Assembly (NCBI RefSeq): GCF_022458985.1
Contig: NC_061781.1
Location: 16,957,001 to 17,021,000 of the forward strand
Direction of reading: 5' to 3'
DNA length: 64,000 nt
From: Mugil cephalus
Taxonomy: Eukaryota > Chordata > Actinopteri > Mugiliformes > Mugilidae
Within the stretch, counting starts at the first letter, position 1; each line of letters starts with the position of its first letter. The notes beneath the pieces were generated by a model, which had not been told where the DNA came from, ran no database searches, and saw only the letters and a program-made list of their open reading frames with translations. Of this stretch, positions 45,389-61,342 are shown in pieces. The position numbers and the translations under genes are program-made.

Positions 45389-49810
<4,422 letters not shown>

Positions 49811-53835: not shown

Positions 53836-56800
53836 ATGATGGAGATCATGTGGATTTTTGTCATGGTCGTCTTCTGTACTGAGGCGTGGAGCATTAATCC
53901 AGGTTTGAACATTAACGCGCTGCGTTGTTTTTTTTCGGTGCTTTTCTTTAAGCCTTATGAAGTCACAATATTAAAAACTCCACAAAGATATAAAGAAGTT
54001 GTCCTTAATATTTAAGTCTTGATAGATGGATAGGTTGATGGATACTTTATTTATCCTGTGGGGAATTTGGTGTAAGATATTTAAGTTATATAATGATATA
54101 AATCTATAATGCCATGTAAAAAAAAAACTATAAAGAAGTGGCAGCAATGACCAACAGTCCGGTTGTTTCCTCTCAGGGAGGAATTGTATAGTCTTATGAC
54201 CCGAGGGACAAAAAAAACCCGTCTTCAAGTTCATCTTAATGCAGTAATTTTAACACCTCTCTAAATTTGAGATATCAGCTTTTGCGTGGATGTGGGGTAT
54301 GACGGCTAAGTAGCACAGCGTAAGCGGCAATGAAGTCTGTGATTTACTCTAAACTCACCGTACAGTGACTCACAGTGAGCACAGGTCTGTGGAAAGACCA
54401 CACATGGTGGTGAGGGGTGGGAGGAAGGGGGGGGGGGGGGCAATGCCGAGCATGACAGGGGAAAAAGTGTTCCGTAACAGTTGCAGTTGCAAGATAAAGA
54501 TCTCCCCCGTGAAGCCCCTGAAACACGCCTCTCTTACAGTCTTGTGGTTTCACTATCCCACCTTGAGTCAGTTTGTTGTTTGTACTTGTCAGAAGTAAAC
54601 AGGTGTCATGTAAAAGTATATGAAGCGTGAATATTCGCTTTGAAATAAGGAACTACTTTTACCGTGCTGCCAACTAACAGGGGGCGGTTGTCAACGTAAC
54701 CCTTTCCTGTTGGTGCGTTACGGTGCTAGGTGTTTGTTTTTCCGGGCTTGCTGCGGACATGTTTTAATTGTATCACATCTTAACTGACTGACTAACTCAC
54801 CACGTACTAAAATTTAAATCATCTTGACTGACTCTGCTGGTCGGTTGCTTCAGAATGAATCAATGATTGCTACTGACTGACACATTGCACAACCTTACTA
54901 ACCTTTTCCTCACGTCCACCTCCATCTTTCTCAGGAACTAATGAAAACACCCCTGTGAACTTCACTGCTTCTTCTTCTTCCACTATCAAACTTTACGGTA
55001 AACTCATTTCCTCATGTTACTGTCCAGCTACTTTGCACCCGGTAACACATTAAATAAGACGATGCATATGAAGTGTGATGCGATGTAAAGTGATGTAAAG
55101 ACACAGTCAGCCCCTCCAATCCTTCTTTCATCCATGAAGCTCTTTATTTTTTATTTTCTTTGTCAGAATTAATTGAAAGCGTAGTTTTTTTTTTTTTAAC
55201 AAGTACAAGTAGTTGAATAACAAAGAAACTGAATATATTAGTTATCAGTCATTATAGTAGTTAATTATTTTTAGTTTCTTTTGGAATCTAATAATGAACA
55301 ATAATTTAAAAATGCCATTTGGGACAACTTTTATTTAGAACTGAGTTAATCAGTATTATAAGTAATTATTAGTTATGTTCAGGGCAGAAAGCTCAGGGTA
55401 CCACATTCATTCTGTGGTTTTGTGTATAAAGCATTGAATGTCATTTTTTCTTCAGTCTCTCAGGGAAGTACGGCAAACTCAGAAGGCCATGCACATGAAT
55501 CATTTTCTATGTTTCACAGATAGTAAGAAGCAGTCTTAGTTTTCTTTATTGAAGATTTAACAAACGCAGACTCTAACACATTCTATAGCTCTTCAAATCT
55601 ATATTTAACTAATATGAGTTTGGGTTTCACACGTAACATAACGCAACTATATATTTCATGTTTTGTGTCGTGTTTTAACTTCAAGCCTAAAATCTAACCA
55701 GTGTGCCATGCTTTTCTTTTTTATTCATATTGTATTGGTTTTATCTTTGCGTTTAAGTTTTCCTTTGATTTCGTATGTGCGTACTTTAAGGACAAAAGTA
55801 TTTCTCTGCATTGTTCTTTATTGGAATAAACCTCAAATTGTGTAATTAATGCAAACACTCTTTCCTTTTTTTTTTTGTTCAGTTAATAGATATGAGAATT
55901 ACAAGGTTGAGAGTGAGGTCAACCTGACATGCAGCAATAAGACATGGACGGAAACAATGTATGTTATCTGGAAAATACAGATGAAAAACAAAAACTGCAC
56001 GATATCCTTTGACAGCGAAGGTCGAAGCGAAAACACGTGTGGCGATGGCAAGTCTCTCAGAAACACATCCGCTCAGTCGTACCTGCACATCTCAAAGTTG
56101 TCAGCTGATGATGAGGGCGTCTTCATGTGCGAGTCGGTTTACACGGGAGGAAACGATAACTTTAAAATCCACGTGAATATCACAGGTAAGAACTAATTTT
56201 TTACTTACAGAGAGAAATAACTTTTAATTAATACATGCCTTCTGGTTCATGATGAGGCTGTAAAAATACATAAAATCCAAAAAATGAAGCATATTAAACG
56301 TTCATCAGGTACTACCGAGTCTAATTTCTCCTGCTTTGTCTTTCCCGGTTCAGTTCCTCCTAGTATACATGCCTGGTTTGAGCGTAAAGACAACAAGATG
56401 GTGGCAGTGTGCGAAGTCGTGGGGGTAAATCCTGCCTCCAACATCAGCTGGAGTTACGCGGGTAGCACCCTAAATGCCAATGAAACGTCGCTGTGCACTA
56501 AAATGCAGTGTTCAAGTCGTCTGGAGCTCCCTGAGGGCATGGCCGCAGAAAACCTGAGCTGTTCCGTGAGACATCCGTTCTGGGAACAGGAGAAGATTCT
56601 CAAACCAGAACTCAAAAAAGGTCAGGCCTCTGCCCACTGGACTGGCAAAAGTACGGATTCAAAAGGTTTCTAGGTCTTTTATGATGACATCACCATGAAC
56701 GGATGCACACTGTCGATGTCCATTCGGTTATTAACAAAACATGAATCTTTTTCACTACAGCTTCTTATTCGTTTTGGCTGTGGATACTTATCGCTGCCGC

Positions 56801-57024
56801 AGGCTTCGCAGTTTTGGCGGGAGTCGTATTGTTTGCACAGAAGATAATGATGCTGAGGTAGGACTACTGATTTCAAGAAAACTGAATGAAAACACTACTT
56901 GTAAGCCTGTTACTTTTTTTTGGCTTAGTCACTAAGCTGGTTTGTTTAACTTTTGCCAGGCAAAGCCAACAGTCCGACTCACTGTCCAAGTTTGCAAAGG
57001 TACGTTTTTGTTCTGTCTTTGTAG

Positions 57025-57055
<31 letters not shown>

Positions 57056-57190
57056 TTTTTGTCTTTCACAGCTCTTTGTGAAGTTTTGTTTCACAACACC
57101 CTCTGTTTTTCATTTCAGACAGAGGATGTGGAGGATGTGGAACCCTATGCTAGCTACGTTCAACGTGTAAACTCTATCTATAACACATAG
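53836..57190 (+). CDS. cd200r1: CD200 receptor-like immunoglobulin receptor (7 coding exons, 302 aa)
   Basis: Predicted type I membrane receptor; mammalian CD200R binds CD200 and restrains myeloid cells. Exons: 53836-53902, 54935-54997, 55883-56185, 56354-56620, 56761-56857, 56960-56999, 57119-57190; 909 nt, phases consistent. Exon 1 encodes a signal peptide with two adjacent Met codons; exon 2 a short Ser/Thr-rich stalk-like segment. Exon 3 is a V-type Ig domain (NLTC, IWKI, DDEGVFMC) with the extra Cys pair (NCTI, NTCGDG) seen in CD200R. Exon 4 is a C2-type domain (VAVCEVVGVNPASNISW). Exon 5 is the transmembrane helix. The tail VEPYASYVQRVNSIYNT aligns with the human CD200R1 tail QPYASYTEKNNPLYDTT, fixing the family. 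Many NxS/T sites. The Dok-binding NPxY is NSIY here. BTLA, TIGIT or CD80 fit less well. The polyadenylation signal is ATTAAA at 57663. Confidence 0.88.
54024..54240 (-). mobile_element. LINE-type 3' tail in CD200R-like intron 1
   Basis: gatggatactttatttatcc and tatgacccgagggacaaa are the antisense form of common fish LINE 3' ends. 5' truncated, no ORF. Confidence 0.5.
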
Positions 57191-57679: not shown

Positions 57680-59970
57680 CACACTGATATCATTTTAGCT
57701 ACATTCTTCACAACTACTGAGAACACTGATAAGCAAACAGGTTATGGCAAAAGTCACTTTATGAAAAACTAAAATAGTCCCGTTTTTATCTCCGGTCTAT
57801 ATTTAGTGTCACAGTGACTTTTACATCTTTCGTAGACAAAAAACAAAACTGATACTTCACTGCGTGGTGGTTATCTGTGGTAGGGCATGAAAAGACACTG
57901 ACTGTAAACCAGAGACCAAATACACTGTATAAACCTATTACCGAGATGGTATGAACCAGAAAAAGGAGCTATTGTGCCCTCTACCGGCAGATATATGGAA
58001 GTAGTCATTTCTAACAGCTTGACATGTCGGAATTTTGTGACGAAACACATAAATTAAAAAAAGGGTTAAATGACTGCGCTCTGCGAGCAACAGTCAGGTA
58101 AAGAGACATTTTCTCCGCTACCTATGTGAACAATGGAGAATGAACTCCACGGTCGCCTTTCAGCACGAAATACTTTCCACCATGTATCTGGATGGGCCGT
58201 GCCTGTCCGCTCTTGTATGCATGACAGACCCCTTTGATTAAGAGAGGCAAAACCTGTTTCAATTTGCATACCGGCATGTCATAAACTTGAAATTTGTGAA
58301 CCCAAAGCTTCCTTCCGCCATGTTATTTTCCATTGCACATATTGATTGCTTGCATTTTCTTGTGCAGAGAAAGAGGAAACTGATTTCGGTGTAACAAATT
58401 TATTTCTGCTTAGAGGTGATGAGTCATTTGGCATATCAAGAAAATGTACAGCCAGACTGCTGAATGCATTAGCATGATTTCCACTCCAAAGTAGTTACAA
58501 AAACCTTGTTGGGTGTTGTTTGAGGCAGCGAGATAACTGCGGCGACTTTATTCGTGTAAATTTATCGACGCTGAAGCAGAATAATGACAGAAAGAGTAAG
58601 TTGGTACACTTTTAATTTGCTAACACTAAAAAAAAAAAAAGTTAAAAAAAATCGACTGAAAAAAGTCCACATACAGTAAATTAAGCTATATTGTAAAGAT
58701 TCATATTCATCAATTAAATCATATAAATAATACACTGACACAGACAAAACATGTGTACATGTAAAAAGAAATCACAAAAATTATAAATTCTTAAGTTTTA
58801 AATATACTGTATATCTGTAGTACATTTAGGAAGTGTGCAGTACTTCTTAGCTGCAATGCGAGCTCAAAATTGGAATTGCAAATTACAGTATATGTGGGTA
58901 ACTTTCTATCCTACATTTCACGTGGCACAAACCTCACAAAATGTGTTATTGTGCAGAAAGACAAATTGCATTTTAGGCATTGGTAACCTTTTCAGTAAAG
59001 GCTGGTTAGGGCAACTAGACGTGGGTTTTGGTTGTGAAACTTCGGTTAAGGTGGAGCTTGGCTTTCGTTGTGCTTCAGCAGTGCCTTGATAAAGATAAAG
59101 ATCAAGCCTCCATCTGCTGTAGGAAATCCTGACATCGGATGTGCTCACATTAGTCGATTCATGAGAGGCACAAAGTCACAGTCACAACTACTTTCTGTGC
59201 AGCCTATCGTTGTTTTAGCACACGCACCACATGCTTAAAAGGCCAAACACACTGAACACCTTCTGTTCTCATGACTATTTTTGGACAAACAAGAAACTGA
59301 CGCCGTCAAAAGTAATGTAAAAAATTCAACAAGTAGTGGCTGTAAGACTCTCAGACATTCAAGGCGTAACGACTGGTAGTTAGTGAGAGGCTTTGCGATG
59401 GTTGCTGCCGACCTTAGAGAGCATTCAAACACAATTTTCGACAGCTTTCAATGGGGTGACAATGTGAAATAGTTTCCTGAATTCTCAGTACCACACCCAC
59501 TGACTTCTTCCAAAAATAAAAATTCAACACGCGGCTTCAAAACATCATTCATTCAGGTCAACGGTGAAACTCGTCACAGCACTTCCAAAGCCACTGGATC
59601 GGCTGCTGTTCTGGGAAAAATTATTGACTTTCAAGTCCTCAAACTCAACCGCTGGATTAAGTTTTCTCTCCGTCTGGCCACTTCCAGATATTTCGCTGAT
59701 TTCATGACGTCTTGTGAATCAATTCTCCTGAGTCCCCTCCGTTAAAAGTTCAAATTCAAATTTGTCCTCTTGAGAACAGTTGTAGTCTGGTCTATGGTTG
59801 CCTCAAAGGTGGAAAGGAGGATCTTGAGGCTAGGCTTTTCAACCGCCAGCTTGTGCCGGTTGAAAACCACTGTTTCTCAGGTGATGAGTTCATTTGTACC
59901 ATTACAAGACGGGTGACATGCATGGATGTAATCTGTTTGTCTTGCATCTTGCAATGGTGGTTTGCGCTTA
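57680..59970. other. Stretch between the two convergent immune genes
   Basis: Contains the unresolved 3' UTR of the GCSAM-like gene, read leftward from 59971. An AATAAA on the - strand at 58399-58404 is one candidate end. ctctaccggcag (about 57979) and the 58060-58290 area look like dispersed repeat debris. No further exon chain seen on either strand. Confidence 0.4.
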
Positions 59971-61342
59971 TTACCCCATGAGCACATAATCATCTGCACA
60001 CTCCTCCTTAGACGAGCACTCAGATTCGACTGCGGGTGGATCTGCTGCCGGGATATTAACTGTGGCGTAGTCACAATCATCGTCACTGGTGGCCCTGGTC
60101 CTTCTTGACACTTTGGCAGTGGTGTGGTTGATAGAGGCGTACATTACGTCGTCTGCCTGTCAGGAGAGAATGCACGGATAGTAAGTCACCCTTCTTTGTT
60201 ATTTTATTTCATTTCTATTTTTGATCAGCTCTTCTGCAGCCTGCACAGTTTTTTTTTTAAGTAATTTGGCTTCCTGCTAATGAAATATAGAACTCCTCTT
60301 ACAACAGAGGCCCTACACTGAAGTTTACCCAGTATGCAAATCCAACCCATATCACGAAAGCACAGACATAAACCCAAGGGAGGCTGCTAGCTGATAGATA
60401 TGGAGATTTATGGTCAACAGGAATAGACTCAACACAGAGAGAACTACCTTATTATCAGTGTTTTTATCATCAGAGTCCCCTGAAAGACAAAATGGAAAGT
60501 TATTCCCACATACTGTATACACATAATGACCAATTTATATTATTAAATGTTATGAATACTTATGTAGATGTGGTTATACCTTTTCTTTTCTCCTTTTGCC
60601 TGAAAGTAAAAGGAAATTGAGAAGATTAAATCAACACAGGATCACACACAGGTCAGTGGAACAAGTTCGTCCAAAACTGTAGCTTAACTCAACATTTATG
60701 ACTCCAATCCAAAACATAAAACATGCAAAAACACTATCTGCTGCGCCTTATCGGGGGATATTTACCACACAACAGTGTTCCCTTGACAGCTAGACGCATG
60801 AGAACATGTGCCGCAACAGGAAACACTTTGCATCGGCCCTACAACCGACATCTGTCTATTATAAACCATCACTAACTAGAAGGTCAGGAACAACAAGTGC
60901 TTTCAGGACCACTCTCGCACATGTTTGTGTGTTCGTGTGAAATATGTCCTAGTTAGCAGATAGGTAATTTCTTCATAACCGACTCAGCGTCGGCAGTGAC
61001 ACTTGGCTGGAACTGAGTCTATTTAAATCCAGTAACCGCTATTTCCTTGCTAAAGCAAATACAGAAGCTGCTCACCACAAACCGGAAAAACAAACAAAAA
61101 ACCAAACTACAACAGCATTTCTTTTAAATAAACACTTTTAGCCTCCTTTTTTTTATTGCGGCCTTTAACTACATCATGTTGTAATTTAATTACCCTTATC
61201 TTTAAGCTAGTTTCTGTTTATGCTGCAGTAATTTAAAAACAAATAACACCACGATGTTGGAGATGTTACGTTGTGGTGCTGTTGTCTTCCTACTTATGTG
61301 GAGTGCCAGTGTGATTACTCACCTTGAAATGCAGTTTCCCAT
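59971..61342 (-). CDS. gcsam: GCSAM-like myristoylated tyrosine-motif adaptor (4 coding exons, 85 aa)
   Basis: A very small gene split over tiny exons: 61342-61323, 60599-60580, 60479-60448, 60156-59971 (20, 20, 32, 186 nt), with good donors and acceptors and matching phases. The start MGNCIS is an N-myristoylation signal (Gly2, Ser6) with Cys4 for palmitoylation, then a Lys/Arg stretch: a lipid-anchored inner-membrane protein. The last exon holds three tyrosine motifs: VMYASI (ITIM-type), CDYATV and DDYVLM near the C-terminus. The spacing and wording YASINH, DYATVNIPAADP and DDYVLM parallel YTLINH, EYSLLHMPSTDP and DEYELLM in human GCSAM (HGAL, 178 aa), which also has an MGN start. Human GCSAM lies at 3q13.2 near CD200R1, which supports orthology. 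The symbol is by homology from memory. The human middle region is missing. Alternatives are GCSAML or an unrelated adaptor. Confidence 0.72.

Follow-up and report, generated by a model that had tools for sequence, protein, structure and literature searches.

A chain of four coding exons on the minus strand of the Mugil cephalus genome probably represents a genuine gene, whose product would be a lipid-anchored adaptor that carries an ITIM and works like GCSAM. In mammalian germinal centres, GCSAM adjusts motility and signalling through the B-cell receptor. We favor, with middling confidence, the interpretation that the chain is a genuine gene with four exons and a single copy in the genome, and that the lipid-anchored adaptor it encodes most likely represents GCSAM/GCSAML in teleosts, in a reduced form. 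The window, which is the whole stretch of DNA that was analyzed, covers 64,000 nucleotides (C12:16957001-17021000) of a genome that was searched over 634.8 Mb in 24 contigs. The exon chain, its phases, its motifs and its neighbours are read directly from this DNA. The GCSAM interpretation made in the initial annotation is partly supported by them: membership of the GCSAM family is plausible by structure and place, and is unproven by sequence.

All four exons lie on the minus strand. Coding exon 1 (61342-61323, 20 nt) encodes MGNCIS and the first two bases of Arg7, whose codon is split between AG and G, and it ends in a phase-2 donor, GTGAGT. Coding exon 2 (60599-60580, 20 nt) encodes a basic QKEKRK stretch, runs from phase 2 to phase 1, and has a weak donor, GTATAA. 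Coding exon 3 (60479-60448, 32 nt) encodes GDSDDKNTDNK and runs from phase 1 to phase 0. Coding exon 4 (60156-59971, 186 nt with the stop) contains Y30 in VMYASI, followed by NH, then Y54 in DYATV and Y81 in DYVLM. When the chain is rebuilt from the window, its three introns are all GT-AG with junction phases 2, 1 and 0, and the four exons join in frame to give an 85-aa product, MGNCISRQKEKRKGDSDDKNTDNKADDVMYASINH...ADDYVLMG, with an MGNC start and three tyrosine motifs. The junctions 61323/60599, 60580/60479 and 60448/60156 and the product, both first proposed in the initial annotation, are reproduced exactly from the letters, and the four-exon chain is confirmed as a sequence feature. The accompanying description of four tiny exons suits those of 20, 20 and 32 nt, but not the fourth, which has 186 nt.

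The ATG of the adaptor gene lies in the context ATCATGG. An in-frame stop is found 5′ of it with no other ATG in between, which makes MGNC the earliest start in its frame. The candidate polyadenylation signals on the same strand are ATTAAA at 58616, AATAAA at 58552 (58552..58557) and AATAAA at 58404, plus two more. Judged from its letters, the four-exon gene is a well-formed prediction rather than a proven gene. It is also a good example of a blind spot in annotation, as its three tiny exons share 72 coding nt and automatic pipelines may miss the gene.

The splice sites were scored with simple matrices of our own, and ranked by percentile among the GT or AG dinucleotides that a 224-kb region has on its minus strand. 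The donors of introns 1-3 fall at percentiles 99.9, 92.2 and 97.1 and the acceptors at 99.8, 99.9 and 98.7. This means that five of the six sites lie above the 97th percentile, the exception being the exon-2 donor GTATAA at the 92nd. Among 32 enumerated ATG-to-tail chains that reach the acceptor of the tail exon, the proposed chain ranks first (49.3 vs 43.5 for the next) at a donor threshold of 0.3. This threshold was lowered from 1.0 after a first, stricter run, from which the chain was excluded because its exon-2 donor scores 0.56. Codon use in the tail exon is coding-like in its own frame alone (17.1 vs -7.4 and -53.7), which is mild support for coding. An equal or better codon score is reached by 327 of the region's 5486 183-nt frames that are open and follow an AG, and this, together with the weak exon-2 donor, speaks for a chance chain or a decayed gene, in which the tail exon is real or a relic and no such mRNA is made. 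We consider that reading unlikely, in view of three strong acceptors, closing phases, 85 codons free of stops, a good start context and the first rank among the 32 chains. Two rare strings also argue against it: MGN[CSY] occurs four times in the six frames of the 224 kb, and [DE][DE][VL]xYxx[IL]NH occurs a single time, in the adaptor tail exon.

The simplest mechanism that we infer for the product is a minimal adaptor, which would couple receptor kinases to SH2 phosphatases and to Syk- or PI3K-type partners. Expression, lipidation, phosphorylation, binding partners and descent are predictions that go beyond the letters. The protein is short, charged and probably disordered. Small and soluble-bodied, the adaptor would be attached to the cytoplasmic side of the plasma membrane through an N-myristoylated Gly2, a palmitoylated Cys4 and the basic stretch from R7 to K13. 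The sequence MGNCIS with basic residues after it makes a standard myristoyl-palmitoyl-polybasic anchor and fits the myristoylation consensus; the MGN signal for N-terminal myristoylation is present in the product as MGNCISR, from which lipidation is predicted. At activated leukocyte receptors, Src- or Syk-type kinases would phosphorylate Y30, Y54 and Y81. Y30 (VMYASI) may then recruit SH2 phosphatases, and Y54 and Y81 (DYATV, DYVLM) may recruit Syk- or PI3K-type SH2 domains. We take DYVLM to be a YxxM motif of the PI3K type.

Human GCSAM offers the closest point of reference for these motifs. PMC11518702 describes its first tyrosine as an ITIM without known partners, and states that Y107ENV binds GRB2, Y128 and Y148 bind SYK, H91 binds FBXO10, and the C-terminus binds PDZ-RhoGEF. 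The same paper describes a C43FC45 palmitoylation pair and a PDZ-binding QFSHL end. The fish product has in common with GCSAM (also HGAL or GCET2, and M17 in the mouse) an MGN start, an ITIM-type tyrosine and two more distal tyrosines. It further shares an N-H pair four to five residues past the ITIM tyrosine and an acidic DxY context near the end, and its gene stands in a neighbourhood that partly resembles that at 3q13.2. In contrast, GCSAM has 178 aa, a length given in PMC4262766, and four tyrosines, while the fish product has 85 aa and three. Y107ENV, C43FC45 and the QFSHL end are missing from the fish product: its tyrosine contexts are MYASI, DYATV and DYVLM, with no GRB2-type YxN motif, and its 85 aa contain neither a CxC palmitoylation pair nor a PDZ-binding C-terminus. 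The fish form would thus consist of a lipid anchor, an ITIM with NH, and a pair of distal tyrosines, and would lack the modules by which human GCSAM engages GRB2 and PDZ-RhoGEF. If it is a true counterpart, it would show the oldest part of GCSAM.

With GCSAML, the fish product shares the MGN start, a tiny phase-2 first exon, the ITIM, and the absence of a PDZ-binding end and of a palmitoylation pair. PMC10333346 gives 29 coding nt for exon 1 of GCSAML and 60 for exon 2, and reports that skipping of exon 2 swaps Ser for Arg. Because this swap occurs at the junction, the exon-1 junction of GCSAML is of phase 2. The first coding exon of the fish gene is likewise tiny (20 nt vs 29 nt) and of phase 2, with its Arg codon split by the intron, and this structure adds independent weight to the GCSAM reading. 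However, GCSAML keeps a YEN site and its 60-nt exon 2, whereas the fish gene has no YxN and an exon 2 of 20 nt. From exon 2 onward (20 nt, then 32 nt, with phases running 2 to 1 and 1 to 0) the fish gene differs from GCSAML.

In the profile search proposed in the initial annotation, Pfam HGAL (PF15666) is the only family matched by the full product at E values up to 10, with 14.8 bits (E 0.031) against a curated cut-off of 27 bits; a 69-aa version of the product gives E 0.026. The positive controls reach 145 bits (human GCSAM), 97 bits (GCSAML) and 131 bits (mouse M17). HGAL is matched by none of six other constructs, which were the tails of human BTLA and CD22, the fish BTLA-like and CD200R-like tails, exon 4 alone, and exons 1-3 with the ITIM. 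Shuffled versions of the product were also searched against Pfam, with residues 1-4 and the stretch from -2 to +5 about each tyrosine held fixed. Four of these 40 motif-keeping shuffles match HGAL, the best with E 0.002, which is better than the 0.031 of the real product. In view of these matches, the HGAL hit of the product reflects the tyrosine motifs and the acidic composition.

Profiles made from the GCSAM family give a similar picture. A two-sequence GCSAM profile scores the product at 8.7 bits, which is reached by 6 of 3000 full shuffles and 9 of 3000 motif-keeping shuffles. With a three-sequence profile the score is 9.0 bits; of 5000 shuffles of each kind, 2 full and 22 motif-keeping ones do as well, and the human BTLA tail scores -0.6 bits. 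As single queries, with 5000 shuffles of each kind, GCSAM scores 4.8 bits against the product (reached by 25 full and 38 motif-keeping shuffles), GCSAML 6.8 bits (23 and 47), mouse M17 1.8 bits (147 and 325) and the human BTLA tail 9.4 bits (1 and 22). Alignment pairs Y86 and H91 of human GCSAM with Y30 and H35 of the fish product. The partner of Y54 varies by alignment method, being human Y107 in some and Y128 in others, so that the two distal tyrosines Y54 and Y81 are present in a register to human Y128 and Y148 that differs between methods. Taken as a whole, the sequence evidence for kinship with GCSAM is suggestive, not decisive.

Searches for further relatives were made in several collections. 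The product has no match in PDB or in NCBIfam. Within its own genome, the tail-exon query found, besides itself, only one place on contig C20 (E 0.61), which is regarded as a chance match; no such gene was seen by eye in the surroundings. The HGAL family search of the genome returned nothing and is uninformative, because it missed the adaptor gene and a control too. A human GCSAM segment used as query also found nothing in this genome and missed the adaptor gene itself, so its result is no proof that paralogues are absent. Among prokaryote contigs 36 stretches matched the pattern and among viral contigs three, and none was confirmed, as expected for a fish gene.

In the open-licence literature on GCSAM/GCET2 in fish or on its evolution, titles and abstract openings contain no description of a fish GCSAM. 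C1ORF150/GCSAML is reported in PMC11518702 to be missing from lower vertebrates. It had been stated in the initial annotation that teleosts lack classical germinal centres. This needs qualifying, as PMC11695322, citing Shibasaki et al., reports a germinal-centre analogue in trout spleen, and it is there that a fish counterpart could be examined.

The genes around the adaptor form an immune cluster. To its left, exon candidates were recognized by eye as FSTL1, LRRC58, GPR156, GSK3B, an NR1I2-type receptor and CFAP91, and matching Pfam domains were found for the nuclear-receptor, kinase and FSTL1-type pieces. The part of CFAP91 at 47501..48446 on the minus strand (Pfam CFAP91) is an anchor gene beside the cluster, and a genome search with CFAP91 gave three matches, all at this locus. 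Rightward, the order is a CD200R-like gene, the adaptor gene on the opposite strand, two BTLA-like genes and a CD200-like gene. The CD200R-like gene (55883..57190, plus strand) has V and C2 Ig exons, a transmembrane segment, a 40-nt exon (56960-56999, phase 2 to 0) and a tyrosine-bearing tail exon, which starts in phase 0 as in the adaptor gene and ends YASYVQRVNSIYNT / EDVEPYASYVQRVNSIYNT. Its best PDB match is CD200R1 (E 2.1e-12), so that the synteny with CD200R on which the initial annotation relied is real, with BTLA-like genes on the other side.

The two BTLA-like genes are in tandem on the plus strand of C12, to the right of the window (extended window coordinates, about 65475-66215 and 70334-71737). 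Copy 2 matches BTLA with E 3.5e-10, and copy 1 has an Ig domain that looks almost the same. In copy 2, a 32-nt exon running from phase 1 to 0 (71160-71191, extended coordinates) is followed by an ITIM-type tail with EVYASI and TEYTAV. For copy 1, no ITIM-type tail exon like that of copy 2 was found, the candidate being IPRDGHVSNCAVYADI. Three signal-peptide-like stretches, similar to one another, also lie on the plus strand here (63672-64031, 64635-64790 and 69322-69459, extended coordinates; MDRL/MDTL..YLVIFLCFTC); they suggest first exons of BTLA-like genes, one of them with no apparent Ig exon to go with it.

In humans, we take CD200, BTLA and CD200R to lie close to GCSAM on 3q13.2. The ATG3/ATG10-type family, which presumably includes a human neighbour of BTLA, was searched for in the whole genome and has matches at G000:C7:27718956-27720970 and G000:C23:3000358-3000871 and none on C12. 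The wider human 3q13.2 block is therefore broken up here. Human GCET2 is placed at 3q13.2 between C3orf52 and SLC9A10, with TMPRSS7, C3orf52 and SLC9A10 as direct neighbours, in PMC2997777, and at 3q13 also in PMC4262766. None of these three neighbours was recognized among the fish genes read around the adaptor. With the direct human neighbours not recognized and the ATG3-type genes elsewhere, the immune cluster fits and the wider block does not.

The neighbourhood and the motifs also bear on a different descent of the adaptor. The ITIM-type first tyrosine with a His five residues on is present as VMYASINH, which is not specific to GCSAM because the human BTLA tail carries the likeness too. 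Human BTLA presumably has YASLNH where the fish product has YASINH, with the next tyrosine 25 vs 24 residues on. This similarity, at least as great as that to GCSAM, suggests that the product may be a lipid-anchored ITIM adaptor which works like GCSAM without being its orthologue, its tail having come from a BTLA- or CD200R-type inhibitory receptor or having converged. That motif-only shuffles reach HGAL points the same way, as do the phase-0 starts common to the tail exons of the CD200R-like gene, BTLA-like copy 2 and the adaptor gene, and the 32-nt, phase 1-to-0 exon of copy 2, which equals exon 3 in size and phase. We hold this reading to be possible but somewhat doubtful. The tail of the neighbouring fish BTLA-like gene is unlike the adaptor product (with a score of 26, z is 1.0 for full shuffles and 0.2 for motif-keeping ones), and the MGN start and phase-2 first exon are traits of the GCSAM family. 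BTLA is an Ig receptor with a transmembrane segment, and within the limits of the scan given below no such exon joins fish exon 2.

Other short adaptors with tyrosine motifs are SIT, LAX and SCIMP, which carry transmembrane segments. Weak Pfam matches to them came from single motif-keeping shuffles, and the real fish product matches none of them. A clearly better match to another adaptor family, which would have told against the initial annotation, was not found, but the BTLA receptor tail is an equal match. For homology to GCSAM speak the neighbours, the kind and phase of the first exon and the sole Pfam family; against it stand the score below cut-off, the four of 40 shuffles and the BTLA tail.

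The shared phase-0 tail starts and the 32-nt exon of copy 2 also lead to a reading of origin, by which GCSAM itself would have been born from a receptor tail of the CD200R/BTLA cluster, its ITIM exons freed from Ig and transmembrane exons and re-anchored by an MGN exon. This is a long shot, and the likeness to copy 2 in exon size and phase is so far a small-number coincidence. If true, the fish gene, which is flanked by CD200R-like and BTLA-like genes and has a BTLA-like 32-nt, phase 1-to-0 exon and a YASINH motif resembling that of human BTLA, would preserve a view of this origin and predate germinal centres.

The CD200-like gene at the right of the cluster raises one further question, namely whether exons 3-4 are the cytoplasmic tail of this same-strand receptor about 16 kb upstream, with exons 1-2 minor or spurious. 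A scan of the minus strand at 61350-79000 (donor and acceptor scores >1.5, 19-residue hydrophobicity >1.9, end phase 1 or 2) found no transmembrane exon joinable to exon 2 and no in-frame Ig exon for it. Within these limits, the sole transmembrane exon belongs to the CD200-like gene (76263-76364, three nested candidates); it ends in phase 1 and could be joined in frame to exon 3, but it cannot join exon 2 in the frame of the tail. Two opposite-strand BTLA-like genes lie in between, and mammalian CD200 has a short tail that is not known to carry tyrosine motifs of this sort. We therefore regard a CD200-like tail as very improbable and retain the reading of a four-exon adaptor gene.

The assignment of the CD200-like gene is itself weaker, as it comes from a comparison with the human CD200 domain, whose score of 56 was equalled in 1 of 2000 shuffles. 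In PDB its best matches are MHC class I and Ig domains; the 60 matches listed, of 640, include no CD200, and in Pfam C2-set and C1-set fall just below cut-off. Beside it, several PDZ-domain exons lie on the minus strand at 90463-93254 (extended coordinates); by eye they are PDZK1- or NHERF-like, and one of them matched Pfam PDZ.
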